Under the pieces are notes generated by a model. It saw only the letters and a list, made by a program, of their open reading frames with translations. It had not been told where the DNA came from and did no database searches. From NCBI RefSeq assembly GCF_017115095.1, contig NZ_JABXKI010000058.1, positions 1 through 37,365 of the forward strand: a stretch of 37,365 bases of DNA, read 5' to 3'. A program made the position numbers and the translations under genes. This document shows positions 920 through 15,801 of this stretch, piece after piece. Position 1 is the stretch's first letter, and the number at the start of each line of letters is the position of its first letter. The DNA is from Nostoc sp. NMS4. Its GTDB lineage: Bacteria > Cyanobacteriota > Cyanobacteriia > Cyanobacteriales > Nostocaceae.

Positions 920-3900
920 ATGTTCCAAAGTACGGAAATCATGGTGGGACTCTATAAACCACTATTATGGTTAGCACAGGTTCCAGGAGAACCCTCAAAC
1001 GTCACGCCAGAACAAGCATCGGTTCTCATTTCCGGGCCACGCTTTTTTGTGGCTTTAATCTCCGGCGTGATTCTTGCCTTTGCTTTCCAATTAGTTCTAA
1101 CTAATCTCTCCCTTGCATTCGGTATTTCCTATCTGGGGCACTCATCTGACTCGGATTCAGATAGTAGGGAAGTGGGGAGTTTGGGCGGCAACATTCGCAA
1201 AATCGGTACAGCAGTGGGAATTTGGACACTAGCCACTGTGACGATCGCCTTATTAATCGCTTCTTATCTAGCAGTAAAATTGAGCCTTGTGATCTCAGAC
1301 CGAGGATTGGGAGCGATTCTCGGTTTGGTAATTTGGGGTGCTTACTTTTTACTCCTAGTTTGGGTAAGTTCCACCACCGTCGGCTCCTTAATTGGCTCAG
1401 TTGTGAATACCGCAACATCTGGGTTTCAGGCGATTATGGGGACTGCTACCGCCGCACTAGGCGCTAAAGCTGTGAATAGCCAAGTGGTCGCCACAGCTGA
1501 AGCCGCCGCCTCCGCCATCCGTCGAGAACTAGGAAGCGCTATCGACCCCGTGAGTATCCGGGAAAACATTGAAGATTACTTAGAAAAGATCCGCCCTCCA
1601 GAACTCGATGTATCAAAGATTCGGAGTGATTTTGAGAATTTACTCAACGATCCGCAATTAAAAGCGATCGCTGGGACTCCAGATATCCGCAACATCGACC
1701 GCCAAAAGTTTATCGAGTTAGTCAGCAGCCGCACCGATCTTTCTAAAAAAGACGTTAGCCGCATTGCTGATACTTTGTATAAAGTTTGGCAACAAGTCGT
1801 AAGTCAGCAACCACCCACGGAAGACCGTTTGGGTGAGTTGATGGATTATCTGAAATCACTTCCGCCAGGACAAAGCAAAACAGACGAACTCAACGCCAAA
1901 CTCGATCGGTTACTAGCAGAAAAGCGTGGTTCCAAAGAATCTGACCAAAAGGCAGCTACCGGGCCAATTCAAAGTACACTCCAGCAAGGAATATCTGCCT
2001 TAACCGGCATTGTGTTAGGACGCACAGATTTGTCTGATTTGGATGTGGAAAAAATCTTGGGTAGTCTCACCAGTGCTAAAGATAAAGTCACCCAACAAGC
2101 AGATAAGCTAGGTTTGCCAACACCATCACAACCCTACAGTCCAATTCGGGCTGATGTGGAAAACTACCTGTATAATACCTATGCTTGGCAACTGAGTTCA
2201 GAAAGAATTGCCCAGGAATTTCATGATGTCATCTACGACCCAGCTGCTGACCCTGGAATCGTCCGCCGGGAACTAGAACGCCTATCCCGCAATGATTTCG
2301 CCAAAATTTTGCAACAACGCGGATTGCTTACCCAAGGTCAAATTCAGCGTATTGCAAATCAGCTAGAAACTGTCCGCCAAGAAGTGCTGATCACAGTTAG
2401 AGCTATTGAAGAAAGAGAGATAGTCCAAGACTTGCAACGCGCAGTAGAAAGTTATCTGCTTGTTACTCCCAAGGCAGATTTGACTCCCGAAGGCATTGAG
2501 CGGAATTTTAAACCACTGTTAGCAGACTCAGAGGCAGATTACGAAACCCTGACATTGCGACTAGCGCACATTGAACGCCAAGAAATTCGGGAGATATTGT
2601 TACAACGTAATGATGTCCAGCTATATGAAGTAGACAGCATTCTCGATGAGTTGGAAAAACAACGCGATCGCGTCTTGGTAGAATCTAAAGGATTAGCAGA
2701 ACAGGCACAATATCAAGCAGAAACCCTGTGGTTGAATGTAGAATCATATCTGCGTAACACCGGCAAATCAGAACTGAATCCTGATGCTATCCGCGCCGAC
2801 TTCAAAAAGTTACTCGAAGATCCCCAAGCTGGAATTAGCTCAATTCGGGCGCGTTTGTCTCGCTTTGACCGCGATACCTTGGTGCAATTGTTGAGTCAGC
2901 GCGAAGATTTGAGTGAAGATCAAGTCAATCAAATCATCAATGCTACTGAAGAGTCATGGCATAATATTCGCCACACACCCCAAATTGTAGTCGATAAAGC
3001 TAAAGAGCAATACGACTCTGTGACGACAACGATCGCAGATTATCTCCGAAATACTGGTAAACAAGAACTGAATCCAGAAGGTATTCAACGAGATTTAACC
3101 AGATTGTTTGAAAATCCCCAAGAAGGAGCCGTTGCCCTGCGCCGTCGGTTGTCGCAAGTAGACAGAGATACCCTAGTGAAATTACTCAGTCAACGCCAAG
3201 ACTTGAGTGAAGAACAAGTCAATGAAATCATTGATTCTACTCAAACTTCGATTCGTAACTTTGTGCGTGCGCCACGTCGCCTAGCTAGCCGCACACAGCA
3301 AAGAGTAGAAACATTCAAAGGTTATCTCGAAGAGTATCTGCGTCAAACTGGTAAAGAAGAACTCAATCCTGAAGGTATCAAACGCGACTTGCAATTATTG
3401 TTGCACGATCCGCGAGTTGGGGTGGAAAGTTTTGGCGATCGCCTTTCCCAATTTGACCGTGATACCATCATCGCCCTGCTGAAAATCCGGGAAGATATTT
3501 CTGATCAAGAAGCAGCGCGAATTGCCGATAACATGGTGTCCGTAAGGGATCAATTTGTCGAACAAGTGCGGAGCATCCAACGAGGCATTCAAGATGCAAT
3601 TGACGGGGTTTTTGCCCGCATTCGTAACTATCTCAACTCCCTGGATCGCCCGGAACTTAACTATGATGGTATTAAGCGCGATCTTCGCACCGTTTTTGAC
3701 GATCCCCAAGCGGGGTTTGATGCCCTGCGCGATCGCCTGTCCTCCTTTGACCGTGATACCCTAGTGGCAATTATGAGTTCTCGTGAGGACATCTCCGAAG
3801 AAGATGCCAACCGGATCGTAGACCAAATCGAACGGGCAAGGAACACAGTATTGCAACGTGCAGAACGTCTACAGCACGAAGCCCAACGCCGCCTAGAAGA

Positions 3901-7575: not shown

Positions 7576-8631
7576 ATTGCAATTCATTAAAATCCCTATT
7601 AGGGATTGAAACATCTTTTGAAGAGATTCTAATGATATTCCTAGTATAATTGCAATTCATTAAAATCCCTATTAGGGATTGAAACCCACAGATGAAATCC
7701 GACAACCGCCAGAGTCGGATTGCAATTCATTAAAATCCCTATTAGGGATTGAAACGTTGAAAAATTATTATTAGCTGAAGCCACGCACCAATTGCAATTC
7801 ATTAAAATCCCTATTAGGGATTGAAACATAACATCTGTGTCCATAAACCTTAATCCATTCTTCGATTGCAATTCATTAAAATCCCTATTAGGGATTGAAA
7901 CCCAACTTCTTTCTTTATGCTATTGATGTAGCTGCTAATTGCAATTCATTAAAATCCCTATTAGGGATTGAAACTGCCCTTGTAGGCGATAACGCGATCG
8001 CCTACCTTGAATTGCAATTCATTAAAATCCCTATTAGGGATTGAAACCTGACTCGCTCCAATCCATCTTTTCGATCAACTACATTGCAATTCATTAAAAT
8101 CCCTATTAGGGATTGAAACACTAACTTTATTCCCAGAAATAGAAATGTGATGGATTGCAATTCATTAAAATCCCTATTAGGGATTGAAACAAGCACCCAA
8201 TTGGCTATCAAGGAAGCTTTAAGTATTGCAATTCATTAAAATCCCTATTAGGGATTGAAACCTCAACTATTTGGCAGTATTCAAGTTGCCTGATGGAATT
8301 GCAATTCATTAAAATCCCTATTAGGGATTGAAACGTCATTCCCAATTTCTGTTGCTTGTATCCATGATTTATTGCAATTCATTAAAATCCCTATTAGGGA
8401 TTGAAACTGAGTGCGATCGCATTGCACTATGGCGATTAGTGACATTGCAATTCATTAAAATCCCTATTAGGGATTGAAACATTGCAGAACTCTCTGCAAA
8501 ACTCAAATGGACTTTGATTGCAATTCATTAAAATCCCTATTAGGGATTGAAACAGAAATCAGGCTAGGGAAGCCGTTAAGTCAAGCAGATCCAAATTGCA
8601 ATTCATTAAAATCCCTATTAGGGATTGAAAT
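7576..8631 (+). CRISPR. CRISPR array, 15 repeats and 14 spacers, no cas genes nearby
   Basis: The 37-base repeat begins ATTGCAATTCATTAAAATCC and ends CTATTAGGGATTGAAAC. Repeats start at 7576, 7649, 7719, 7791, 7865, 7938, 8011, 8083, 8154, 8225, 8298, 8371, 8444, 8517 and 8595. Repeats 1-14 look identical; repeat 15 ends in T instead of C, which marks the leader-distal end. Spacers are 33-37 bases, except the last, which is 41. The 3' end ATTGAAAC matches the 8-base crRNA handle expected for plus-strand transcription. This repeat family is common in cyanobacteria with type I-D and type III systems, but subtype cannot be fixed without cas genes, and none lie in the window. The identical repeats suggest an active or recently active array. 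Confidence 0.98.
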
Positions 8632-13764: not shown

Positions 13765-13961
13765 AGTTCGGCACAGAATACAACCGTCATATTTTACAGT
13801 TTAATTAATGTAGATCGCTTTTTAACGCTACTTTTTGCTCAGGGACAGGAGTAGTTTTTGAGTCCGACGTGATGATACTAATCCTACCGTCAGTTTCCAT
13901 GTATGCCAATTTCACATCAGCCAAAAATTCCACACCTTGCTGACGTAACTTACTCATCAAC

Positions 13962-15113
13962 TCATAGAGACCTCACGGGATGCTGGAAACTCAGTGTCTT
14001 TAGACCTGACAGCGTTGCGACACGGGTGGTTTTAACCACCGTGGTAATTAAACCAGTTGAACGTTTAATTAGTGATACTTTATTTTTGCTAAATTGACCT
14101 AATCTTTTCCAATCTTGATCGGATACCGATACTTGTTTTTCCGTGTCTCCACTAACCCATCCAAAATACGTTTTATTTCCTTGCGTAGCTTTCACATAGT
14201 CTCCTTTTCTCAATTCGTGTTTTGTTACTGTTCCTCCATATTTACGTCTAATTCCTCCAATTGAAGGAACCATTAAATGTAGTTGCCTACGACTAATTGG
14301 AGGACGACGCAAAATCGTAAATTGTGATTCTGTTATATTGACTTTACCTATCCAACTTGCACCATGACTTTTGGTTCCAACGCAAGATTTGTATTTAACG
14401 AATTCCGAACTTGCAAGTGTTATTGCATCTACCGCGTGAGTCTCTGGAATTTGTAAAGACTTATCTGACTTTTCTTTGTGCAAACCTAGATGCTTACGAA
14501 GATTAGATGTTTCCCATCCTTTTTTCAGGGTTACTTTAGCAATTTTAGATAAACGATCTATTTGATATCGTTGACCTACCATCACCGGACTAAAACTCTT
14601 ATTTCCAGTCGCTTTTACTTCTTCGACAACAATTGTTTTTACTGGGTAAATATCGCACAACAAACTAATCACTCGGTATTCTAAATATTTATTAGCTCGA
14701 ATACTCGGTGGTAGTTTAGAGCCGCGTCTATTATCAAATCTAGCTTTACGATGATTGCGTTTTGTAAAAGATAAATTACGTTTAATTCGTCTTCCACGTC
14801 TACCACGACGCATCATAGCTCGTTGTTCCATTCTTTTTTTGATTGATTTGAATGGCAAAACTAAATGCAGCATTTGTAATGTATATTTTCGAGATTGAAC
14901 CCCAATCCCCGAAAACATTTTACCGGGGTCTAAACCAATTACTATATCTTGAGTTTTTGTATCAATTAAATAGACTAATAATTGAACATAAAACATTCCT
15001 AGTTTGTTGAATTTACCAAGAGCTTTACCTTCTGTAATCCAGCGTCTAGCACGACTTGGTTTTGTTGGCATCAAAGGTAAATTATCTTTTGAAATTACTG
15101 GTACTCTCTGCAT
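13962..15113 (-). CDS. isrB: IsrB, RNA-guided nickase (IscB relative without HNH)
   Basis: IsrB uses an element-encoded omega RNA to nick DNA. The 383-residue protein has the N-terminal PLMP domain (P13-L-M-P16), RuvC-I with Asp62 in IVIGLDPGKMFSGIGV, an arginine-rich bridge helix (about 94-125, RRGRRGRRIKRN), RuvC-II with Glu164/Glu165 in TIVVEEVKA, and RuvC-III with His226 and Asp229 in ETHAVDAITLA. About 60 residues separate RuvC-II from RuvC-III, and they contain no HNH domain, which separates IsrB from IscB. RRPPISRRQLHLM and a C-terminal target-binding region follow. All RuvC acids are kept, so it may be active. The TGA stop lies in the flanking host ATGA, outside the element. Confidence 0.93.
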   Translation of the reverse strand: MQRVPVISKDNLPLMPTKPSRARRWITEGKALGKFNKLGMFYVQLLVYLIDTKTQDIVIGLDPGKMFSGIGVQSRKYTLQMLHLVLPFKSIKKRMEQRAMMRRGRRGRRIKRNLSFTKRNHRKARFDNRRGSKLPPSIRANKYLEYRVISLLCDIYPVKTIVVEEVKATGNKSFSPVMVGQRYQIDRLSKIAKVTLKKGWETSNLRKHLGLHKEKSDKSLQIPETHAVDAITLASSEFVKYKSCVGTKSHGASWIGKVNITESQFTILRRPPISRRQLHLMVPSIGGIRRKYGGTVTKHELRKGDYVKATQGNKTYFGWVSGDTEKQVSVSDQDWKRLGQFSKNKVSLIKRSTGLITTVVKTTRVATLSGLKTLSFQHPVRSL

Positions 15114-15325
15114 GGAGATAATCCTTAGAGTAAAAGTTTAAGTCCCTTCGCTCAACGCAGTTAAGATGTCTTGCCCAAAGCAACACTATTAACAAGATAG
15201 TTTGAAGATAATCCGAACTAGGGAAACATTCGGAAGTTCGTACCAAACTGCGTCTCAATTGAGCTAGTCAAACACGTAAGACTTGTTTCTTACAAGCTCA
15301 GTGGCTTCAGCCCTGAGTTATTGAC
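13966..15325 (-). mobile_element. HEARO/IsrB element (1360 bp), complete, non-autonomous
   Basis: The ends were placed by rebuilding the interrupted DUF421 gene. On the minus strand the element begins GTCAATAACTCAGGGCTGAA at 15325 and finishes with CCCGTGAGGTCTCT at 13966. Its order is left end, structured RNA, isrB, right end. The isrB reading frame runs through the right-end structure, which includes the stem GGTGGTT / AACCACC at 14025-14040. The 5' flank is ACAGATG and the 3' flank is ATGAGTTG, with no target duplication required. This fits IS200/IS605-like single-strand transposition and the ATGA/GTGA site preference described for HEARO elements. No tnpA is present, so movement would need a transposase supplied in trans. 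Confidence 0.9.
15114..15325 (-). ncRNA. HEARO / omega RNA of IsrB
   Basis: The region between the element's left end and the isrB start matches the HEARO RNA as I know it from cyanobacteria, including the conserved 3' stretch GGGCAAGACATCTTAACTGC. Stems can be seen directly. The first hairpin is CTCAG / CTGAG (plus-strand 15297-15301 with 15313-15317) with inner GGCT / AGCC. Next are CTTGT / ACAAG and CCGAA / TTCGG (15213-15217 with 15229-15233). An 8-bp long-range stem joins 15155-15162 and 15246-15253 (ACGCAGTT / AACTGCGT). In IscB/IsrB systems the guide is the host sequence just 5' of the left end, here ending GTTAATTACAGATG (about 15326-15345). Confidence 0.88.
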
Positions 15326-15801
15326 CATCTGTAATTAACTGTTGTTGCAGATGGCACTCAATCATCTGACCGTTTTTTACCAATAGCAAGGGTGGCGGAT
15401 TCAGGAAACGTTGGAACTGGGGAAATTTGTAACCCAACCAGTTCAGCAAGTAACTCCAAAAAATTACTGTTCCTAGCAGGATAGCGCCTTCAGTAATTGA
15501 TGTATAATTACTTGCCATAGCATTTTGGGCAGCTTCCGCAAATAGCACAACTACAAGTAAATCAGTAATTCCTAATGTTCCTAATTGTCGGCTAGGAAGT
15601 AGTCTTAGCACTGAGAACAGCGCTAAATAGACCAGCGACTCCCTGATAATTAACTCAAAGATGCTGATGCTAGGAACAAAAATTGCTTGCCAATTGATAA
15701 AAAACCATTTTTCCATTAGCACTGATTTTTTTCCTTGTTCAATAGACTTCTGGAAAAAATCCAGTATAAAACCCGAAGAAGCCATCTGTAGCGATCAAGG
15801 A

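Follow-up and report, generated by a model that had tools for sequence, protein, structure and literature searches.

How does a transposon without a transposase of its own come to lie inside a host gene, and what makes the guide RNA for its nuclease when the guide lies outside the element? These questions are raised by a locus of Nostoc sp. NMS4, where, within the window (the whole stretch of 37,365 nucleotides that was analysed), a gene of the DUF421 family is broken by an insertion that carries isrB and a HEARO-type omega RNA (Table 1).

Table 1. Features of the insertion locus, in window positions.
Feature	Positions	Strand	Length	Basis or remark
IsrB/HEARO element	13966..15325	-	1360 bp	Empty sites at 28 of 29 orthologue loci
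DUF421, 5' part	15326..15785	-		Orthologues in 34 of 59 genomes
DUF421, 3' part	13805..13965	-		PF04239, E 4.7e-9
ATGA, predicted target-adjacent motif (TAM); host bases directly adjoining the element's right end	13962..13965	-
isrB, RuvC nickase (nicking predicted) without HNH	13962..15113	-	383 aa	RRXRR, E 1.5e-46; IsrB 8dmb, E 2.2e-53; stop codon in host DNA
Omega (HEARO) RNA region	15114..15325	-		RF02033 at 15136-15325; helix S1 starts at base 15325
Predicted guide, host DUF421 sequence	15326..15345	-	20 nt	Position by analogy with the DtIsrB omega RNA
Left-end hairpin CTCAGGGCTGAAGCCACTGAG	15297..15317	-		Read from the sequence
Right-end hairpin TCAGGTCTAAAGACACTGAG	13990..14009	-		Read from the sequence; same right end in L400

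Fundamental to any answer is where the element begins and ends. The initial annotation had held that DUF421 is split at exact boundaries without target duplication, and joining the two flanks by script indeed restores a frame of 206 residues that contains LITDDELMSKL and has no internal stops. The element lies in sense orientation within DUF421, between ATG and ATGA, and its junction cannot slide to either side, as element base 1 (G) differs from host base +1 (A), and the final base of the element (T) from that of the left flank (G). The proposed comparison with intact orthologues was carried out with the DUF421 5' part as query, and 29 of the loci matched in relatives' genomes (L003-L031), all from the same genus and of 84-93% overall identity, were taken. 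With one exception these align insert-free across ATG/ATGA and show no gap up to 20 nt from the junction, reading ATGA to its right in 23 loci, AGGA in three and ACGA in two, with ATTACAGATG kept to its left in 7/28; the insert of the window was seen at this site in 0/29. Both ends are thereby fixed to the base, the empty site equals the joined flanks in alignment, and insertion without target duplication is confirmed. The 29th locus (L026, from genome G014 of another species of the genus) is interrupted at a different place by a TnpB element at 1922-3025, such that the same DUF421 gene has been hit by two independent RNA-guided-nuclease elements. The further suggestion that the insertion is recent gained no support: filled and empty alleles were not found side by side within one species, and the most similar element encountered (L131) has 86% DNA identity. 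Within the genus the closest copies are elements about 77% identical in two genomes, G017 and G018, and the 7.58-Mb assembly itself holds a single copy. Elsewhere in the window, at 7576-8631, there is a CRISPR array of 15 direct repeats (Rfam CRISPR-DR5).

The protein of the element is, judged by its sequence, an IsrB (OMEGA) nickase, with nicking predicted, as had been proposed. Its closest solved structure is DtIsrB (8dmb), with a match that spans residues 2-356, and it combines RuvC, PLMP and a bridge region with the lack of an HNH domain and with an omega RNA region upstream of isrB. Matches to IscB cover only about residues 3-184, with the IscB model matching 6-184 at 90.7 bits, under its cut-off of 175, and a PADLOC run gave no matches. 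When the RuvC motifs are aligned to those of DtIsrB, DPG, the E of VVEE and the H and D of THAVDA are kept, these acidic and histidine positions being the catalytic ones. The last 25 or so residues form a C-terminal tail encoded by the right end of the element, and the frame runs 4 nt beyond that end, so that its TGA stop codon falls on bases 2-4 of the ATGA in host DNA. The stop of isrB thus overlaps a host ATG, which in the window opens only two codons. That the TAM might supply the isrB stop as a general rule was considered and rejected, since the same arrangement is found at only 8/116 unique sites of relatives, the window being additional to these.

The identity of the RNA was approached in two ways. 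The covariance-model search that the initial annotation had called for does find HEARO on the minus strand, with a match (E 7e-9) that starts at element base 1 and covers the full consensus, 1-211; its score of 50.5 bits lies under the gathering value of 83, such that no match is returned at the Rfam gathering threshold. An independent fold predicted from 28 related left ends, with pairs counted on this fold and not on the Rfam structure, contains 52 pairs, of which 38 have at least one compensatory change, and its outermost helix begins at element base 1 (G-C in 24 sequences, U-A in four). With a helix that starts at this base the RNA scaffold should start where the element starts, and RNA upstream of the scaffold would be host sequence. 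The omega RNA of DtIsrB carries a 20-nt guide 5' of its scaffold, according to the structure paper (PMC9581776). A guide in this position is not part of the element but precedes it, and so has to be transcribed from a host promoter, in this case presumably the one of DUF421. In the filled site GTC comes directly after the left flank, and a scan of the assembly for the guide followed by NTG, at up to two mismatches, gave no other site. Variants of this architecture occur in relatives. Two short elements (L364 and L375) have an omega RNA and a right end without a complete isrB and are possibly transposons that make only a guide RNA. Four loci of genome G188 (L134, L138, L141 and L142) have, between left end and isrB, what we take to be group II intron end-like sequence together with an HNH-like frame.

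What, then, would the particle recognise? PMC9581776 gives the TAM of DtIsrB as NTGA (TTGA at 60 degrees), as the initial annotation had stated, and reports that it is read by R323 and Q326, that the Q326R variant accepts TTGG and ATGG, and that the TAMs of DsIsrB and BbIsrB are NTG and NTGG. In the window protein the two reading residues are kept as R337 and Q340, which, together with the fold from base 1, supports the earlier proposal on what the RNA should read, namely the stretch of host DNA immediately 5' of the left end, followed by ATGA. Among relatives the residue at the second of these positions goes with the motif: Gln is present in all 124 ATGA rows and all 22 TTGA rows, Arg or Lys in 6/6 ATGG rows (five distinct proteins) and Glu in the single CTGA row. 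Five GTGG or CTGG rows have Gln with doubtful boundary calls, ATGA after a typical tail being visible farther on in three (L115, L128 and L226) and not resolved in two (L233 and L234), and these five were removed before tree building. In a quickly built tree of 149 proteins motif base 4 and the reading residue each switch three times, always together, although three pairs are too few for significance (sign test, p 0.25). Reading of ATGA by the window IsrB is therefore a supported prediction, and the paired changes suggest that insertion motif and TAM evolve together.

The means of movement have to be sought outside the element. It contains no tnpA, a gene that an autonomous IS200/IS605 element would carry, and a TnpA lies near isrB at only 1/176 loci (flanks of 0.7-2.5 kb, TnpA queries from the genome of the window), in agreement with the few HEARO nucleases found beside TnpA according to PMC9755519. 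Insertion without duplication at a short fixed motif is nonetheless what is seen with IS200/IS605 elements, and hairpins are present at both ends in the same orientation, each with an extra A in its 3' arm. The genome itself has five Y1 transposase matches; its related TnpA is at L073, where the right end differs by eye from that of the window element. A right-end pattern built from close relatives and applied with up to three mismatches, which the window's own end misses by a 1-nt insertion, finds no second right end in this genome, and it is present in 30/118 genomes of the family with a maximum of 82 matches in G188 and 69 in G162. Most of the fetched right-end copies, with 41 unique right flanks, are without isrB. 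At L400 (G436:C108, about 1095-2494), in a different genome of the family, a tnpA is placed directly before a right end near-identical to that of the window element, followed by ATGA, with a tnpB upstream on the other strand; a left end was not found at L400, such that only the right end is common to both. This right end suggests that a TnpA of this kind mobilises the window element in trans, and an element of the L400 type, with tnpA and tnpB, is a candidate for the transposase source. A separate curiosity is L395 in G188, where just before a pattern match an apparent element of about 50 bp consists of left-end bases, one hairpin and a right-end tail, again followed by ATGA.

The insertion is likely, and with good confidence, a transposon of the IS200/IS605 type that is non-autonomous and has isrB with the accompanying omega RNA as its cargo. 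It would operate as follows. A Y1 transposase supplied in trans would cut the complementary strand after 5'-TCAT-3' and the element would move as single-stranded DNA. Once in place, transcription from the DUF421 promoter would generate an RNA in which DUF421 sequence, serving as guide, is followed by the omega scaffold and then by isrB. In an uninterrupted allele the particle formed from this RNA and IsrB would recognise the same stretch of DUF421 followed by ATGA and nick the non-target strand, which would favour retention or recovery of the element. The occupied site would not be readable by the particle because its left flank is followed by GTC and not by NTG. As IsrB is a nickase, a nick would have to be the first step of any homing; homing by the window element is plausible.

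Is the choice of place by this element typical of its kind? Right ends were called in 171 usable of 176 loci as the point where pairwise matches end, snapped to NTGA or NTGG, a procedure that gave no call for 6/171 loci and some wrong ones (L120, L148, L149, L190 and L202 are probably off). Two or more votes backed 141 unique right flanks, of which 108 read ATGA and 17 TTGA, the latter mostly from proteins of about 47-50% identity. The ATG begins an open frame 60 or more codons long at 70/108 ATGA sites, the window included, and at 1/17 TTGA sites, compared with 149/589 other ATGA in the same flanks on the same strand and 42/414 on the other strand. With both ends known and the window excluded there are 116 unique sites (97 ATGA, 10 TTGA and nine other). 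The 97 ATGA sites, all from Cyanobacteriales, comprise 54 start, 28 intergenic, 14 in-gene sense and one in-gene antisense, where a start is defined mechanically, and hence inexactly, by a frame of at least 60 codons from the ATG that is preceded by an in-frame stop no more than 30 codons away (L139 falls outside the class although its ATG resembles a start). The window copy belongs to the in-gene sense class. In a control of 3383 ATGA sites, drawn from 400 kb of three genomes where the insertions come from many, 7.7% are starts (261, compared with 944 intergenic), and matching on the fifth base gives 8.1 expected starts for the 54 observed (n=97). The start excess is present in all four identity classes and is weakest in the closest (6/18), and in-gene sites are in sense in 14/15 cases for 9.7 expected (p 0.027). 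HEARO elements have reportedly been seen before to insert in front of ATGA or GTGA; no title or opening abstract found on HEARO, IsrB or IscB describes the start-codon pattern.

The pattern was checked at further insertions. Of 15 searched for empty sites, 14 were examined in 60 fetched loci and 10 proved base-exact across the junction, one of them (L136) with ATTA in the relative. Ten proteins encoded downstream of insertions are dapB, cyanophycin synthetase (cphA), sulfate adenylyltransferase (sat), methionine synthase (metH), glutathione synthase (gshB), DAHP synthase, RimK, an NAD-dependent epimerase-like protein, argininosuccinate synthase (argG) and an OppC-like permease. In 9/10 proteins the best family match starts no later than residue 13; for the OppC-like permease the Pfam match starts at residue 4 and the NCBIfam match does not start this early. 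With family matches at the N-terminus, the ATG beside these insertions is very probably the host gene's own start codon.

What might cause this pattern, and does IsrB have any part in it? One explanation is survivorship, in which insertions within genes are purged and those before a start are tolerated. The near absence of antisense in-gene sites (1/97) fits it, yet tolerance alone predicts the intergenic-to-start ratio of the control, and the insertions reverse it (p 2e-16; p 7e-17 with the fifth base matched), which makes survivorship as the whole cause rather unlikely. Another is that IsrB is a pure passenger, with TnpA alone moving and placing the element and the nuclease taking no part in site or retention. 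It gains from the large number of isrB-less elements with the same right end, and from the window's right-end group, where start frames follow isrB-less copies as often (17/41) as isrB-bearing ones (6/14), so that nothing in the placement of this group shows IsrB at work. Against it stand the co-change of motif base 4 with the reading residue, a change that could also arise if both follow an altered TnpA, and a second right-end group in which start frames are found at 14/17 isrB-bearing and 13/35 isrB-less sites (p 0.003; p 0.023 with both groups combined) and ATGAT at 0/17 and 10/35 (p 0.021; combined p 0.010). A pure passenger is accordingly possible but doubtful. Avoidance of ATGAT, present at just 1/97 isrB sites, was set aside as an effect of IsrB on account of the window's group, where the difference (2/14 with isrB, 13/41 without) is not significant. 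That the window copy is instead a relic, decaying with an isrB and RNA that no longer work, would account for the low HEARO score, the tail that passes through the right end into host DNA and the lack of any close copy in the genus. Such decay is improbable in the face of an open frame of 383 codons with catalytic and TAM residues kept, a conserved RNA fold, flanks free of other stops and the recurrence of the long tail in relatives.

Signals at the junctions were also considered. Provision of a ribosome-binding site by the right end, striking by eye as GGAGTTTTG followed by ATGA, is not supported by counts: a GGAG, GAGG or AGGA core is present in 33/97 right-end tails, and at start-class sites in 15/54 tails and 10/54 left flanks with equal mean pairing energy. 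When the 97 tails are taken together they do pair more strongly than shuffled sequence (mean -3.37 compared with -2.22), and such provision may hold for some subfamilies. Promoter boxes are no more frequent in the left flanks of start-class sites than by chance, a -10-like hexamer being found in 15/54 for 14.4 expected from shuffles. A further cause could be that sites between promoter and start codon, in sense, supply the guide with its host promoter, which is supported by the sense bias, the start excess and the isrB difference of the second group, and opposed by the equal placement with and without isrB in the window's own group; survivorship and a preference of TnpA are possible causes as well.

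Tentatively, and with somewhat more doubt than belief, the IsrB elements of Cyanobacteriales may be pictured as leader parasites that sit between a host leader and ATGA, where the start codon would double as TAM, the host promoter would make the guide RNA, and omega RNA and isrB would be transcribed ahead of the coding sequence in the mRNAs of genes that are often vital (dapB, metH, gshB, argG, sat). With the guide placed 5' of the element, a host promoter would be required, and the window copy would be an in-gene sense version of the same need. The pattern would explain how a guide outside the element is transcribed and how elements persist before vital genes. It is this pattern and the paired changes of motif and residue that are of main interest, the element itself being ordinary. 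Its clean pair of empty and filled site provides guide, target and TAM in their native form for an IsrB from cyanobacteria, by which the role of a natural RNA-guided nickase for its transposon becomes directly testable.

Set beside known systems, the element is another copy of an already known kind, with a clean empty site. It resembles the DtIsrB-omega RNA complex (PDB 8dmb), as presented in PMC9581776, in domain order, a length of about 350 residues, the lack of HNH, the RuvC and TAM residues, an NTGA to the right of the target and a HEARO-type RNA 5' of the gene, and differs in being cyanobacterial, in its C-terminal tail from the right end and in an RNA of lesser length (about 212 nt ahead of the start codon, versus about 282 plus guide). 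DsIsrB from Dolichospermum sp., whose TAM is given there as NTG, comes from the same order of cyanobacteria, and Dolichospermum elements (L097 and L099-L101) have 76-77% protein identity to the window IsrB. The HEARO family RF02033 is matched over its full consensus with a score under gathering. With IS200/IS605 elements that carry tnpA and tnpB the element shares insertion without target duplication, similar hairpins at both ends and the right end in common with L400, and unlike them it has no transposase and carries isrB in place of tnpB.
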